Under the pieces are notes generated by a model, which searched no databases, was not told the DNA's origin, and worked only from the letters and a program-made list of their open reading frames with translations. From the NCBI GenBank assembly GCA_024653485.1, contig JANLFY010000001.1, forward strand, positions 230,160 through 294,159: 64,000 bases of DNA, in the 5' to 3' direction. This document shows positions 3,252 to 59,105 of this stretch, one piece after another. This DNA comes from Bacillota bacterium (GTDB taxonomy: Bacteria > Bacillota > SHA-98 > UBA4971). The stretch's first letter is position 1; every line of letters begins with the position of its first letter. The position numbers were made by a program, and so were the translations under genes.

Positions 3252-6200
3252 GTGAGACAATACCGAAACCTGTCAGCGGCGATTGTCGCTACGCTTCTCT
3301 TGGGAGTCATCTGGGGCTGTCCCGGACGCGTGCTGAGCGCTGAGGAGCCGCTCTACGTGGCCCTCATCTGGCACAACCACCAACCTTTCTACAAGAACCC
3401 CGCGACCGGCGAGTACATGCTGCCGTGGGTGAGGATGCACGCTGTCAAAGACTACTACGACATGGTCTCAATCCTCAAAGAGTACCCAGGTGTCCATTGC
3501 ACGTTCAATCTGGTGCCGTCCCTCATTCTCCAGCTCGATGAGTGCTCTCAAGGCGCGAAAGACGTGTGGCAGGCCATCTCCGAGAAGCCGGCTTCAGAAC
3601 TTACCCGTGAGGAGAGAGAGTTCATCCTACGGAGATTCTTCGACGCAAACTGGGAGAGGATCATCAAGAGGCATCCGCGATACTGGCAGCTCTTACAAGA
3701 GCGCGGAGAGGCGGTGACCGACGCGAGCATCTCCCGGGCCCTCCAGACGTTCACGGATCAAGACTACAGGGATCTTCAGGTCTGGTTCAACCTCGCTTGG
3801 CTCGATCCCGACTTCAAAGAGGGCGATCCTCTGATGAAGGCGTTGATTGACAAGGGCCAGGGTTTCACGGAGGAAGATAAGCGCCGGGTGCTCGAGAAGC
3901 ACGTTCAGATCATGAGACAGGTAATCCCGCTGTACCGGTCCATGCAGGACTCCGGCCACATCGAGGTCACTACCACCCCGTTCTACCATCCCATCATGCC
4001 GCTCTTGTACAACGTGGAGCTTGCCCGCGTGGCCAGTCCGAAGCTGAACCTGCCCAGCCGGGCGTTCGCGCATGTAGAGGATGTCGAGTCTCAGCTAGAT
4101 ATGGCTGTGCGGTTCTACGAGGACCATTTCGGACGCAAACCGCGCGGACTGTGGCCTTCCGAGCAGGCCGTGGGACAAGACATCGTGGGGCTCGTCAGCG
4201 ACGCGGGCTTTCAGTGGATGGTGTCTAGCGAGGGAGTGCTCGCGAGGTCTCTCGGGGTGAGCCTCCGTGACGGCTCGGGAAACGTCGTCAGGCCTGACCT
4301 CTTGTACAAGCCGTACATAGTCAAAGATGAGGGCAGGTCCGTTGTCGTGCTCTTCCGCGACATCGTGCTCTCGGACAAGATAGGGTTCAGCTACTCCGGC
4401 ATGAACGGTGCCGCCGCAGCCCTCGACTTCATGAATTACCTGCGTAAAGTGAAGCGAGACCTTGCAGGGACGCCAGGGCCGCACGTGGTGACGGTGGCGC
4501 TCGATGGCGAGAACTGCTGGGAGTACTACGATAATGATGGGAAGGAATTCCTACATTCCCTGTACAAGATGCTGAGCGCGGATCCCGGTTTCAAGGCCGT
4601 GACGGTTGAAGAGTACCTGAAAGTTCACCCCGCCAAGGACAGAATCCCGGTCCTGCACACGGGCTCCTGGATTTCCGACAATCTGGAGACCTGGGTGGGT
4701 GAGGCCGAAGAGAACAAGGCATGGGATTACCTGGCGAGAGCGCGCGATGTCCTCGCGGCGTACACGTCGGAGAACGCCGGGAACGAGGCGGCGCAGGGGG
4801 CCGTCGCCCTCGCGTGGGACGAGCTCTACGCCGCGGAGGGGAGCGACTGGTTCTGGTGGTACGGTGACGACCAGGACTCCGGCAACGACGCCGCGTTCGA
4901 CGAGCTCTTCAGGACCCACCTCCAGAACGTGTACTCAGCTATCGGGCAGGCGATTCCGGCTTACCTGTACATGCCCATAATCCCGAAAGAGGCGGCCAAG
5001 CCCGACGTCCAGATGACCGGCTTTGCGAAGGTAACTCCTGACGGCAAGATAGATCCGGGCGAGTGGGCGCCTGCGGCCATGTACTTCAAGACTGAGGCGG
5101 CTCCCATGCCAGGCGGCGGAGGGGAGATGATCCTCAGAGCCCTCTGGGTAGGGGTGGATGCGGAAAGCCTCTACCTGCGCTTCGATATGAGGAGCAGCTT
5201 CAAGGATTTCCTGGGCACCGACGCCACGCTGGCCGCTTACCTTTCGAACCCCAGGCGTGCGGAGGCGAACAGCGTTCCGAGGTTAAGCGGCCAGGGAAGC
5301 GCCGCGACCGCTCTCGGGTTCGCGCCCGGTGCCGAGGTGCTCGTGAGTTTCAAGGACCTCGCAAGCCCGGGCCCCGCGAAGGCACGCCTCGCGTTCGCTG
5401 GCGGCGACGAGACGTGGGTTGACGTGAAAGAGCTCCCCGGCGCAGCCGCCGACCGCACCATTGAGCTAAAGGTCCCGTTCGCTGATGTGGGGCTCCGGCC
5501 TGGGGATGCTGTGAGCCTCGCGGTGGTGGCTTCCAAGAACGGCAGGAACGTGGACATGCTACCGCTCGGGGGACCCGCCGAGGCGAGGATGCCCGAAATC
5601 ATCGCCGGCGAGACTCTTTTCAAATGGGACGACCCCGCCGGCGACGACCACGGCCCGGGCAGCTACACGTACCCTCTGAACGCTGCCTTCAAGCCCGGAG
5701 TCTTCGACATGCTGTCCTTTGAGGTCCTCAAGACGGGAGACGAGGTCGTGTTCCAGGTGAGGCTCGCCGGAGACATCACGAACCCTTGGAACTCGCCTGT
5801 GGGCGTGTCCCTCCAGACCATCGACGTGTATATCGACACCGACCGCAAAGCTGGGTCGGGAAAGATCGAGGGGCTTGGTGGAAGGCACGTGACCTTCGCG
5901 CCAGAGTCGGCGTGGGAGTACGCCATCTGGGTCGAAGGCTGGAACCAGAGGATATTTGCGGCAGACGGCAAAGAGGTCCAGGCGGGCGTGAGAGTGAGCC
6001 AGGACCCGGTCAATAAGATCATCTCCATCCGGATCCCTGGTGCTGCTCTGGGCGAACCGCAGCCAACCTGGGGCTACCAGGTCTTCATCCTGAGCCAGGA
6101 GGGTTATCCGGCGCCCGGGAACCTGCGGGTGAGGGAAGTCCTGTCCACGGCTCAAGAGTGGCGCTTGGGCGGAGGAGACGATTCCGAGATAGACCCGAAC

Positions 6201-53288: not shown

Positions 53289-54640
53289 GCATGAAAGGCA
53301 TCTTGAGGAGCAGGGAGCACGCCCGTGTGGCCGACATCGTGATGAACACGTCCAAGGCGGATCAGGTGGAAGCGGCGGTCGAGACGGCTGACACCTACCT
53401 CACTCGATTCGCGAATTCAGAGATCCACCAAAACACGGGCGAACACACCACCGAGGTCGTGGTGAGGTCGGTCTTTGGTCAGAGGGTGGGCGTGGCCTCG
53501 ACTACCAGCTTAGACCGTGAAGCGATCGAGGCCACGGTGAGGCGGGCGGAGCAGATAGCGCTGCTCCAGCCCGAGAACCCTGGATTCCCGGGTCTGCCGG
53601 ACCCCGCCCAGTACGGGGCTGTTGAGGCGTATTCCGAAGAGACGGCGATGTGCACACCAGAGCAAAGGGCAGCGGGGGTCGGTGAGATTTGCAGGCTAGC
53701 GGTGAAAGAGGGCCTCGTTGCCTCAGGCTCGTTCTCCACGACCGCGCGGGAGGTAATGGTCGTGAATTCCCGAGGCCTCCTGGCGGAGGTAAGGTTCACG
53801 CGAGCCAACCTCCTCACAGTCGTGATGTCCTCGACGGGCTCGGGATACGCCGAGCGGTTCTCCGTGGACGTCGCGGACATTGACTCGCGCCAGGTAGCGG
53901 AGGAGGCGGTGAAAGGGTGTCTTGCCGACTCCGAGCCGGGGAGCGTCGAACCAGGAGAGTACGAGGCCATCTTCGAGGACTACGCCGTGGCCGACATGAT
54001 CCAGATGCTGGCGTACATGGGGTTCGGGGCACGCGCGTTCCAGGAGGGCCGCAGTTTCATGTCGGGCAATATCGGGAGGAAGATAACGGGCGCGAACATC
54101 ACCATATGGGACGACGGGCTCGATCCCGGCGGGGCGCCGTTGCCTTTCGACGCCGAGGGCGTGCCCAAGAAGAAGGTCATGCTAATAGAGGATGGAGTCG
54201 CGCGCGGCGTCGTGTACGATTCGTTCACGGCTGCACGCGAGGGGAAACGCTCCACAGGTCATGCGGTGTCGCCGTTGCCATCGGTGGGGCCGTTTGCCGT
54301 CAACCTGTTCATGGCGGGAGGCGACTCCTGCCTTGATGAGATGATAGCCGAGACGAGACGCGGCATCTACGTGAAACGGCTTCATTACACGAACCCGGTC
54401 CATCCGGTGAAGTCCCTCTTGACGGGCATGACGCGGGACGGCACGTTCCTCGTGGAAAACGGCGAGATCGTGCGACCCGTGAAGAACCTTCGGTTCACAG
54501 AGAGCATACTCGGTGCGCTGTCGTCGGCCGAGCTCATCTCCAAGGAGACGAAGCTCCTGCCGCTTTACTCGCTGGGAGGCGTGAGGGCCCCGGCGGTGAA
54601 GGTGGGCAAGTTCACGTTCACCGGTGTAACGGGGTATTAG
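53282..54640 (+). CDS. tldE: TldE/PmbA subunit
   Basis: Non-catalytic partner of TldD, 452 residues, lacking the HExxxH site as expected. Typical sequence: RFANSEIHQNTGEHTTEV, YEAIFEDYAVADMIQMLAYM, GRKITGANITIWDDG and the C-terminal GEIVRPVKNLRFTESI. Its ATG overlaps the tldD stop by seven bases. No obvious RiPP precursor or azole-forming enzyme lies nearby, so a general peptide-processing role is likeliest. Confidence 0.93.
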   Translation: MVGMKGILRSREHARVADIVMNTSKADQVEAAVETADTYLTRFANSEIHQNTGEHTTEVVVRSVFGQRVGVASTTSLDREAIEATVRRAEQIALLQPENPGFPGLPDPAQYGAVEAYSEETAMCTPEQRAAGVGEICRLAVKEGLVASGSFSTTAREVMVVNSRGLLAEVRFTRANLLTVVMSSTGSGYAERFSVDVADIDSRQVAEEAVKGCLADSEPGSVEPGEYEAIFEDYAVADMIQMLAYMGFGARAFQEGRSFMSGNIGRKITGANITIWDDGLDPGGAPLPFDAEGVPKKKVMLIEDGVARGVVYDSFTAAREGKRSTGHAVSPLPSVGPFAVNLFMAGGDSCLDEMIAETRRGIYVKRLHYTNPVHPVKSLLTGMTRDGTFLVENGEIVRPVKNLRFTESILGALSSAELISKETKLLPLYSLGGVRAPAVKVGKFTFTGVTGY

Positions 54641-54802
54641 ACCATGGCACCTTGTCCGCTGTCTCGGAGCGCCGGGCTGGTTGTGAGCTGTCTTGGGACC
54701 ATGCCAGCCTTCGGCCTCGAGGAGAGCTTCAGGCAGCCTGAGAGTCGGTCAGCAGGTGATGGCACGGTGCTCGGCCGCGGCGCGACGTTCTCTGCGGGAG
54801 CA

Positions 54803-54831
54803 TTGATGTCGAGCGCAGCGTTTGGTACAAT
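54803..54831 (+). promoter_or_regulatory. Promoter of the AAA ATPase - Toprim-like pair
   Basis: TTGATG and TACAAT with a 17-base spacer and a TGG extension at the -10. It separates this two-gene unit from tldDE. Confidence 0.65.
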
Positions 54832-54869
54832 CGTGTCAGAGTATGCGGGGCCCTTGTGGAGGTATCGTC

Positions 54870-56144
54870 ATGACCGTCGGGCGTAGCTCAGACTGCTTTG
54901 ATGACGCTCCGGGACCTCCCCGGATAGTCAGCGTCCGGATCAAGAACTATCGTGTCTTCAAGGACGTGCAGTTCAAAGACTTGACGCCCTTGACCGTGCT
55001 CCTCGGCCCGAATGGTAGCGGCAAGTCCACAGTGTTTGACGTGTTCGGGTTCCTTTCTGAATGTCTTGGTGAAGGTCTCCGTAAGGCGTGGGATAGGCGC
55101 GGTCGCTTTAAGGAGCTTCGAAGCAGAGACGCATCTGGTCCCATAGAGCTGGAGCTGAAGTACCGTGAGGCGCCAAGAAGCCAGCTCATCACGTATCACC
55201 TTTCGATCGATGAGTCTCGAAGAGGACCGTTCGTCGCTCAGGAGTGGCTGCAATGGACGCGAGGGAGCCGGGGCAGGCCCTTCCGTTTCCTCGATTGTGC
55301 CAGAGGCGAGGGTCAGGTCATTACAGGGGAACAGCCGGAAACGAGTGACACCCGAGTTCCGTTCAAGCTTGCCTCGGAGGACTTGCTAGCGGTCAACGCG
55401 ATAGGGCAGCTTGCGGAGAACCCTCGGGTCATGGCGTTGAGAAGTTTCATACAGGGGTGGTACCTATCCTATCTCAACGCCAATGAGATACGCGGCATTC
55501 CGGAGGCGGGTCCCAATGAGCGGCTGAGTCGGACGGGGGACAATTTGCCTAACGTCATTCAATATCTGAGTGAACAACACCCGGAACGGCTGTCGCAGAT
55601 ACTCAGCATCCTCGCCGAGCGGGTTCCCCGCCTGGAAAGAGTGACGGCGGAATCCATGCCAGACGGTCGGCTCCTGCTCCGTATCAAGGACGCTCCGTTC
55701 GCGGAGCCATTTCTCGCGCGGTACGCGTCCGACGGGACGCTCAAGATGCTGGCTTATCTGATCCTCCTGTATGACCCGGATCCTGTGCCGCTTCTCGGTA
55801 TAGAGGAGCCTGAGAACTTCCTTCATCCTCGCTTGCTCCGAACTCTTGCAGAGGAATGTAGAAACGTCTCAGGGAGGTCTCAGGTCTTGATCTCCACTCA
55901 CTCACCTTTCTTCGTGGATGCGTTGAAGCCGGAAGAACTCTGGGTTCTTGAGAGAGACGACAGCGGTTATGCACGGGCATACCGCGTGTCGGAGATGCAG
56001 GGCATCAAGGAGTTCGTCCAGCACGGTGCGATGCTCGGAGCTTTGTGGATGGAGGGCCACTTCAGGGTCGGCGACCCACTCAAGCGGCAGAACCGAGACC
56101 ACAGCGCGCACGCGGGGGCAGGCGAGCGCAAGCATGCATATTGA
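54870..56144 (+). CDS. AAA/ABC-type ATPase (AAA_21, OLD/RecF-like), putative defence protein
   Basis: P-loop ATPase of 424 residues without membrane segments. It begins [18 protein letters not shown] and carries Walker [10 protein letters not shown] (about 46-54), a degenerate signature [16 protein letters not shown], Walker [17 protein letters not shown] (about 308-323) and an H-loop [11 protein letters not shown] (about 342). This is the head-domain layout of OLD-family and COG4637-type ATPases, in which a short insertion replaces the long coiled coil. It overlaps the next gene by 11 bases. Paired ATPase-Toprim systems (OLD, Gabija, PARIS) act in phage defence; that role here is inference. 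Confidence 0.82.
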
Positions 56145-56711
56145 GTTCCTCGTGGAGGAGTATTCCGTCGAGAGAGTGCTGCGATGCCTGCTCCCCAGGA
56201 TGCTCCCGGAGCAGGTCACCTTCGAGATCCACCCCCATCAAGGCAAGCCTGATTTGCTCTCGAAGCTGCCCGGGAAGCTCGCTGGCTATGCGAGATGGAT
56301 GCCCCCGGACTGGTGTATCTGCATCCTTGTCGATCAAGATGAGGACGACTGCCTGGATTTGAAGGGCACGATTACGAGAATTGCCTCGCGAGCCGGGGTC
56401 CGGGCGCTGGTTCGCATCGCCGTCAAGGAGCTCGAATCGTGGTTCTTTGGCGACGCACAAGCGATTCACCAGGCATACCCCAGAGTGTCGTGCACCTTGG
56501 ATCGAAGAGCGAAATACAGGAATCCTGATGCGATTCGCGGGGGGCATGGGAAGCGCTTGAACGCGAGCTCCAACGGGCGCGCTACTACCCTGGCGGGATG
56601 CCCAAGGCTCAGGTGGCTTACGACATAGCACGATTCATGGACCCAGCGCGGAACTGCTCCAAGAGTTTTCAGGTATTCCATGCGGGCTTGCGGACGATTG
56701 TCGGGTCCTGA
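56134..56711 (+). pseudogene. DUF4276 Toprim-like protein, frameshifted at a G6 tract
   Basis: Partner gene of the ATPase. Residues 1-137 in the first frame give a Toprim-like protein: FLVEEYSVERVL (acidic residue E8/E9), ILVDQDEDD (D67, D69, D71) and the DUF4276 hallmark KELESWFFGDAQAI. After IRGG the frame turns to nonsense and stops at 56628. In the -1 frame the expected C-terminus continues at once (AWEALERELQRARYYPGGMP, then VAYDIARFMDPAR and FQVFHAGLRTIVG) to a stop at 56709-56711. The switch lies at GGGGGG (56539-56544); one more G would restore a 192-residue protein. Causes may be a sequencing error, a phase-variable tract, ribosomal slippage or real decay. Confidence 0.8.
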
Positions 56712-56780
56712 GGACCGCTGCCCCCACAATCTCGATCTCCTGGGCAGCCTCTCGTGAAGAATGACGCCCTCCTTTGCGGC

Positions 56781-56828: not shown

Positions 56829-59105
56829 ATGGAAGCACCTTGCGATATTCTGGCGGATCTCAACCCCGTTCAGCGGCAAGCGGCCTGCCACACCGAAGGG
56901 CCGCTGCTCATATTGGCGGGCGCGGGGTCAGGCAAGACCCGCGTGCTCACGCACCGCATCGCTTACCTCATCGGTGAGCGGGCGGTCTTCCCCGACAACA
57001 TCCTCGCAGTGACGTTCACCAACAAGGCCGCCAACGAGATGCGCGACCGGGTCGCGCGCCTCGTAGGGCCGTGGAGCCGCAGCATCTGGGTGAGCACTTT
57101 CCATGCATTTTGTGCAAGAGTGCTCAGACGCGACATCGATAAGCTGGGCATTTCGACGGGGTTCACCATCTTCGACGAGGCCGATCAGAAGTCGGCCATG
57201 AAGCGAGCGTTGAAGGAGCTCGGCATCGACGAGACCAGATTTCAGCCGGAGAGCGTGCTCGCTGCGGTGAGCAGCGCCAAGAACGAGCTTATTGACCCAG
57301 AGGAATACGAGAAACGGGCGCACGGGTTCTGGGAGGAGACGGTGGCGCGCGCCTACCGTGTGTACCAGCGTGTCTTGCGGGAGAGTTCAGGTCTCGACTT
57401 CGACGATCTGCTTGTCGAGACGGTTAGATTGTTCAAGGAGCATCCAACCGTTCTCCAGTGGTACCAGAGGCAGCTCAAGTACATCCTCGTTGACGAGTAC
57501 CAAGATACGAACCATGCCCAGTACGAACTGGTGAACTTGCTATCTGCCGAACACCGCAACATATGCGTGTGCGGCGATCCCGACCAGTCGATTTACGGAT
57601 GGCGAGGGGCCGACATCCGTAACATACTCGAGTTCGAGAAGGATTACCCAGACGCAACCGTCATCAAGCTCGAGCAGAACTACCGGTCGACTCAGGTGAT
57701 ACTGGACATAGCAAACAAGGTGATCTCGAGGAACCGGTCCCGCAAAGAGAAGAACCTCTGGACCGCCAACGGCCGCGGACATGAGGCCGTCTACTACGAG
57801 GCCTGGGACGAGCGAGACGAAGCCTCTTTCGTGGCTTCCGAGATAGAACAAGCTCTGCGGAGGGGGCGGCGCTCGAAGGATTTCGCGATCCTGTATCGCA
57901 CCAACGCGCAGTCCAGGGTGTTTGAGGAGACACTTTTGGGGATGGGCCTGCCTTACAAGGTGGTAGGAGGGCTCAGGTTCTACGAAAGGAAGGAGATCAA
58001 GGACATCCTCGCCTACCTCAAGCTAGTCCTGAACCCCGACGACCTCGTGAGCTTGTCAAGGGTGGTGAACGTGCCCAGAAGGGGAGTGGGTGAAGCAACC
58101 CTCGCGAAGTACGTAACATATGCCAGAGAGGCGGGAGTGCCGCTCGCCTTCGCGCTGGACGACGCGCAAGGGGCGGTCTCGGGTGTCACGTCGAAGGCGC
58201 GGACAGCCCTTTCGGAACTCGCGTCCCTCATCCGGGGCCTGGCTGAGGTCGCGGATACCCTACCGGTCTTTGAGATCGCTAAGAGGATCATCGACGGGTC
58301 TGGGTATATCGAGGCTCTCCGGCAAGAGCGCACGGTCGAAGCCGACACGAGAGCTGAGAACATCAAGGAGCTCCTCTCGGTGACGCGCGAGTTCGACTCG
58401 AGGGACAGCGAGCACAGGGGGCTTGCAGGGTTCATTGAAGAGATCACGCTCGCGACAGACGTCGATCTGCTGAGCGAGGAGCAAGAGGGCGTCACTCTAA
58501 TGACGCTCCACTCGGCAAAGGGTTTGGAGTTCCCCGTGGTGTTCCTCGTAGGCATGGAGGAAGGGTTGTTTCCTCACGCCCGAACCCTTGACGACGAGGA
58601 CGAACTGGAGGAAGAGCGTCGACTCTGCTACGTGGGGATAACGCGGGCAAAGGAGGGTCTGTACTTCACCAGGGCAAGACAACGCCTGCTTTACGGGGAG
58701 ATCGTGGTGAACGACCCATCCCGCTTCCTCGAAGACGTTCCCGAACACCTGTGCCGCGAGGTGCTAACGAGGCCGGGCGTGGGCTGGGGACTGGTGAGGA
58801 GGACTATCACTCTATCTACCTGGAACGAGAAGAGCGACGGTTGCGATCCGCGGCGCTCGAGGGACCTTGGCCACCAGTCAAACGAGGGCGTTGACGCAGC
58901 TGCGATGGGACGACCCTCGCCGGGCGAACCTGTGCCCGCGCACTCATATAACCCTGGAGACAGGGTGAAGCACCGGGAGTGGGGGGTTGGCACCGTCTTG
59001 ACTGCGGAAGGCGAAGGCAGGTCCGCCATAATCACCGTAGAATTCGAGTCACTCGGGGTCAAGAGGCTGGCGGTGGCCTACGCGCCCATTGAGCCTGAGC
59101 GATGA
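56829..59105 (+). CDS. pcrA: PcrA/UvrD-type 3'-5' DNA helicase
   Basis: Superfamily 1A helicase of 758 residues for repair and rolling-circle replication. Motif I AGAGSGKTRVL (K36), motif Ia TFTNKAANEM, motif II DEYQDTNHAQ, motif III GDPDQSIYGWRGAD, motif V TLHSAKGLEFPVVFLVG and motif VI CYVGITRAKEGL are complete. The C-terminal end (YNPGDRVKHREWGVGTVL) is the Tudor-like RNA-polymerase-binding domain of PcrA. ATG after AGGAGGG. It is directly upstream of ligA, a Bacillota signature arrangement. Confidence 0.96.
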   Translation: MEAPCDILADLNPVQRQAACHTEGPLLILAGAGSGKTRVLTHRIAYLIGERAVFPDNILAVTFTNKAANEMRDRVARLVGPWSRSIWVSTFHAFCARVLRRDIDKLGISTGFTIFDEADQKSAMKRALKELGIDETRFQPESVLAAVSSAKNELIDPEEYEKRAHGFWEETVARAYRVYQRVLRESSGLDFDDLLVETVRLFKEHPTVLQWYQRQLKYILVDEYQDTNHAQYELVNLLSAEHRNICVCGDPDQSIYGWRGADIRNILEFEKDYPDATVIKLEQNYRSTQVILDIANKVISRNRSRKEKNLWTANGRGHEAVYYEAWDERDEASFVASEIEQALRRGRRSKDFAILYRTNAQSRVFEETLLGMGLPYKVVGGLRFYERKEIKDILAYLKLVLNPDDLVSLSRVVNVPRRGVGEATLAKYVTYAREAGVPLAFALDDAQGAVSGVTSKARTALSELASLIRGLAEVADTLPVFEIAKRIIDGSGYIEALRQERTVEADTRAENIKELLSVTREFDSRDSEHRGLAGFIEEITLATDVDLLSEEQEGVTLMTLHSAKGLEFPVVFLVGMEEGLFPHARTLDDEDELEEERRLCYVGITRAKEGLYFTRARQRLLYGEIVVNDPSRFLEDVPEHLCREVLTRPGVGWGLVRRTITLSTWNEKSDGCDPRRSRDLGHQSNEGVDAAAMGRPSPGEPVPAHSYNPGDRVKHREWGVGTVLTAEGEGRSAIITVEFESLGVKRLAVAYAPIEPER

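Follow-up and report, generated by a model that had tools for sequence, protein, structure and literature searches.

In the window (the whole 64-kb stretch of DNA analysed here, from a 3.0-Mb genome), two genes lie between tldE, which ends at 54640, and pcrA, whose ATG is at 56829. The first encodes an OLD-type ABC ATPase with Pfam matches to AAA_21 and AAA_15, and the second a DUF4276 protein whose reading frame is broken; the ATG of the second (56134) overlaps the end of the first by 11 nt. For the ATPase, the likely start is the ATG at 54870 rather than the TTG at 54822, because a GGAGG ribosome-binding sequence stands immediately 5′ of the former and because of the position of the −10 box. 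An earlier note on this DNA had given the unit a promoter of its own. A sigma-70-like site is indeed present upstream, but it is one of two promoter-type sites found in the region where 0.7 would be expected by chance, and we list it in Table 1 as a weak candidate.

By profile matching, the pair is a member of HEC-01, a candidate defence type in PADLOC-DB 2.0 (HEC-01A/HEC-01B), and hence already described. The ATPase matches the HEC-01A model PDLC04182 at 1.1e-165, with its residues 17-402 aligned on positions 2-404 of 406, and the first frame of the adjacent DUF4276 gene matches the HEC-01B model PDLC04202 at 3e-54; these are the top matches of both proteins, and the gene pairing is identical. 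The one departure is that the second gene is not intact in the window, which affects function in this genome, not family membership. The Pfam and PADLOC matches and the motifs thus bear out the earlier proposal of a defence-type unit made of an OLD-like ATPase and a Toprim-like DUF4276 protein. Its description as a poorly described system does not stand, since both genes match HEC-01 and a published study describes TOPRIM-linked OLD-ABC dyads embedded in BREX loci (PMC12839542). In the literature searched we found no anti-phage test of HEC-01, the sole mention being a listing of predicted systems. The window adds one more genome to the map of a widespread, apparently untested candidate type. 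As a side observation, the HEC-01A and HEC-01B labels of two further PADLOC models, PDLC04143 and PDLC04144, seem to be swapped, as the model labelled "B" there is one that the ATPase matches.

Table 1. Features of the tldE–pcrA interval, in window coordinates.
Feature	Position	Strand	Description
Promoter candidate, sigma-70-like	54803..54831	+	TTGATG-17-TACAAT, TG before −10; weak
Acquired segment, tldE to pcrA promoter region	54641..56775	+	without match in congener G005
HEC-01 ATPase gene	54870..56144	+	OLD-type ABC ATPase, 424 aa, intact
ATPase motifs	54870..56144	+	Walker (18 protein letters not shown) signature, Walker (10 protein letters not shown)-loop THSPFF
HEC-01 DUF4276 gene, first frame	56134..56628	+	164 aa; Toprim-like E..DxD and KELESWFFGD motifs
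GGGGGG run, frame-break point	56539..56544	+	within conserved PDAIxGGTWEAF motif
DUF4276 remainder, second frame	56544..56711	+	conserved RNxSxSF C-terminal motif; stop TGA

The ATPase keeps all of the ABC motifs, and its structure model has a pLDDT of 87. Its nearest relatives by both fold and sequence are PtuA, OLD, Rad50, GajA and AriA, with matches to solved structures at 1.6e-15 for PtuA, 3.9e-12 for OLD and 1e-4 for the AriA chains. It falls in the same ATPase superfamily as OLD, GajA of Gabija, PtuA of Septu and MAD3 of MADS, but the likeness to these systems goes only so far. In OLD and GajA the Toprim domain sits in the same chain as the ATPase, whereas the 424-residue protein of the window has none and the Toprim-like domain occupies its own gene; the pair therefore does not have the single-chain architecture of the class 1/2 OLD nucleases. 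PtuA has an HNH nuclease as its partner, unlike DUF4276, and the match to MAD3 (1.6e-37) is far under the cut-off, at 130 of 420 bits. We also considered a Gabija system with pcrA in the role of the UvrD-like helicase GajB, and rejected it: pcrA is a housekeeping gene that all the relatives searched possess, whether or not they carry the pair. PARIS (AriA/AriB; "Class 4" OLD) likewise combines a separate OLD-type ABC ATPase with a Toprim-type partner, and our ATPase matches the PADLOC AriA model at 6.2e-32. However, its match to HEC-01A is over 130 orders of magnitude better than that to AriA, which places it outside the AriA family, and its partner belongs to DUF4276 rather than to the AriB family: with the PADLOC models, the second protein gave no match to AriB.

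Across 62 DUF4276 proteins, E10, D69, D71, E111 and E113 are invariant, as are S188, S190 and F191 in the C-terminal part. For the intact DUF4276 protein of one homologous locus (L081), AlphaFold predicts a structure with a pLDDT of 94.7 and a β-α-β-α-β-α-β order, in which E10 follows strand 1 and D69 and D71 (the DxD motif) follow strand 3. This is the Toprim arrangement, and the predicted fold is Toprim-like. Closest to the model in fold are PH0156 (2p62) and a viral protein of RloB-like type, each with a probability of 1.00 but an E value above 0.001 and a TM score of about 0.5, and neither is accompanied by a significant sequence match; the DUF4276 profile gave chance matches only when compared with the sequences of solved structures. 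DUF4276 does have weak sequence similarity (0.002) to DUF3226, the family to which we take 2p62 to belong, and this may point toward the same fold as the PH0156 match. A loop of about 12 residues that precedes KELESW is shorter in the window's protein than in most homologues.

A search of 84,980 species confirmed 267 relatives, and the locus analyses below cover the best 80 of these. Those 80, with ATPase identities of 61-67%, come from Deinococcota, Planctomycetota, Proteobacteria, Acidobacteriota, Cyanobacteria, Latescibacteria and others; homologues of at least 60% identity are spread across many phyla, and one is plasmid-borne. Within the window's own phylum, matches were found in 8 of 398 genomes, and none of the five congeners has one. 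A search of a phage collection yielded a single distant match at 35% identity. The DUF4276 gene lies directly 3′ of the ATPase gene in 78 of the best 80 loci, and where it has a full open frame (74 loci) the spacing between the two ranges from −11 to +33 nt, with a median of 2. Judged from these genomic patterns, the two genes form a tight pair that has spread horizontally.

The company that the homologues keep points to defence. Genes for type I restriction (hsd) or BREX occur in the fetched flanks of 35 of the 80 homologue loci vs none of 40 tldE/pcrA control loci, a control set that is smaller in total length (171 vs 893 kb). Among the immediate neighbours, whose names were checked on representatives, HsdS occurs 8 times and PglX 6 times upstream, and PglZ 5 times and HsdR 4 times downstream; others are DarG, Septu PtuA and a KwaB-like protein. 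Several pairs are positioned as pglX-[pair]-pglZ or hsdS-[pair]-hsdR. The co-occurrence in defence contexts that the earlier note had proposed to look for is present. The placement also matches that of the TOPRIM-linked OLD-ABC dyads embedded in BREX and BREX-related loci, which have been described as backup effectors of BREX (PMC12839542): the homologues in pglX-[pair]-pglZ or hsdS-[pair]-hsdR order are placed like auxiliary effectors, whereas the window pair stands alone among housekeeping genes. We infer that the HEC-01 pair and those dyads are the same; the name DUF4276 did not appear in the literature searched. It is quite improbable that the pair is instead a module for DNA repair or housekeeping. 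The relation of its ATPase to Rad50, RecF and SMC and its position beside tldE and pcrA would suit such a role, but its distribution across phyla is patchy, its homologues are placed in restriction and BREX operons, and 0 of 5 congeners carry it. The evidence from sequence, structure and neighbourhood instead presents HEC-01 as a PARIS-like pair of OLD-type ATPase and Toprim-like protein, commonly situated within operons for restriction or BREX.

G014 and G016, which represent two further genera of the window's class, have tldE and pcrA directly side by side. Within the window's genus the junction varies: about 394 bp of intergenic DNA in G005, apparently the same in G004 (where the contigs end with an 18-base overlap), a type II methyltransferase and restriction enzyme in G003 (REase_II, 1.8e-107; L142 509-2924), a remnant of a restriction enzyme of the G003 type in G001 (L147 2039-2750), and a cluster of sugar transport, ROK and glycosidase (GH4) genes in G002 (L143 2455-9312). 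Restriction or HEC-01 genes occupy it in 3 of the 6 genomes of the genus. The tldE–pcrA junction is thus a variable-cargo site in this genus, and a place to look for more defence genes. The earlier placement of the unit as an insertion between two housekeeping genes holds: the segment without a match in G005 starts after the tldE stop and stops before the conserved promoter region of pcrA. Overall G+C is 0.592 in this segment and about 0.62 on either side of it; at third codon positions it is 0.67 for the ATPase gene, below the 0.76-0.80 of the neighbouring genes. These lower values fit a fairly recent acquisition. We also noticed an intergenic palindrome of about 150 bp that is repeated: the G005 contig has several copies, full or partial (L144, about 2625-2780), whereas the window has none. 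The contig ends of G004 fall at this element (L145 end, L146 start), which also occurs in L147.

As had been reported from the sequence, the coding-like signal of the second gene passes from one frame to another at the GGGGGG run; the first of these frames continues to a stop at 56628 and the second to one at 56711. The Pfam DUF4276 profile matches the first frame over its positions 1-145 (7e-15) and the second over 140-191 (1e-5), so that the pieces meet, and a profile search of the whole genome found no DUF4276 other than this match in two pieces. G+C by codon position agrees, with a coding-like pattern of 0.61/0.42/0.72 for the first frame up to the switch and of 0.64/0.49/0.69 for the second frame beyond it. 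In the alignment of homologues the break falls in PDAIxGGTWEAFER, among the most conserved stretches of the family; the conserved part of the first frame stops at the G run, and its final 27 codons are out of frame with the homologues. A full single open frame is present in 74 of the 80 homologue loci. When tract length was compared across the homologue loci, as the earlier note had suggested, no homologue was found to have a G run at this site.

The earlier note had offered several readings of this break, and of these recent decay fits best: the frame break is most likely a real, recent loss-of-function mutation in which one base is missing, and the HEC-01 unit of this genome has most likely been inactivated recently. 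The argument for recency is that DUF4276 is as diverged as the ATPase predicts (residual +0.008, sd 0.027) in both halves of the gene, which also rules out a slow decay of the gene as a whole, the shorter loop ahead of KELESW notwithstanding. To judge from its sequence, the first-frame product is probably non-functional, because it keeps the Toprim core but has the conserved C-terminal helices swapped for 27 unrelated residues.

It is unlikely that the break is an artefact of sequencing or assembly and the organism's HEC-01 intact, although such an error would account for the loss of a single base in a homopolymer of a 41-contig assembly and for the normal conservation of both gene halves. Systematic homopolymer errors are ruled out by comparison with G005: there are no frame breaks in the 31 coding segments shared between the two, which cover 34.9 kb of the window, and all 13 of the G/C runs of at least 6 in conserved genes are in frame.

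That the G run is a functional switch, whether on/off or dosage, for a dangerous Toprim effector is very improbable overall. For a phase-variable contingency switch, in which the nuclease would be switched on or off as the run gains or loses a G, one may point to a homopolymer within the gene of a probably costly effector and to a second half that is still conserved. However, six is a short run, runs of G/C at least that long are common here (25 in 64 kb, including the 13 just mentioned), and the site lacks a run in every homologue, all of which makes this reading far-fetched. Scarcely any probability attaches to programmed −1 frameshifting or transcriptional slippage that yields the full protein at a set ratio. 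The break is in the −1 direction and GGG could re-pair on GGG, but the intact homologues are read through in a single frame, C GGG GGG does not fit the canonical heptamer X XXY YYZ, and the RNA beyond the site folds no more stably than its shuffles (z 0.42); the homologue alignment and the RNA fold led us to reject programmed frameshifting. If there were a switch after all, the abortive system would be active in only a fraction of cells, with the ATPase always made.

Building on the families, operon, catalytic-type motifs, fold topology, mobility and defence neighbourhood described above, we regard it as reasonably probable that the locus is a horizontally acquired HEC-01, a PARIS-like ATPase-gated Toprim effector now broken by the frame break. 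In PARIS, AriA keeps AriB inactive; phage triggers free AriB, which then cuts tRNA (PMC12409363). By analogy, the OLD-type ABC ATPase of HEC-01 would oligomerise and keep the Toprim-like DUF4276 protein inactive; sensing of a phage product by the ATPase could then lead, through an ATP- or trigger-driven change, to release or activation of DUF4276, which might cut nucleic acid, perhaps tRNA, at its E..DxD metal site and so stop the infected cell. In the window, the frame break would remove the conserved C-terminal helices of this putative effector.

Breakage of the second gene is occasionally seen elsewhere in the HEC-01 family. Among the 80 homologue loci, L043, L066, L077, L082 and L085 are affected by loss or lesion of DUF4276, a count that leaves aside L088, where the gene is cut by a contig end; as the loci were chosen by their ATPase, the rate of ATPase breakage offers no fair comparison. 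In L082, from an unrelated metagenome-assembled genome, the frame breaks at the same GG codon pair (about 7660) in the opposite direction; this locus has an additional break upstream, and its DUF4276 terminates at a contig end. In L066 (about 5640-5830) and L085 (after 1418), which are BREX-associated, DUF4276 is truncated or missing behind an intact ATPase, and a PglZ-type gene follows.
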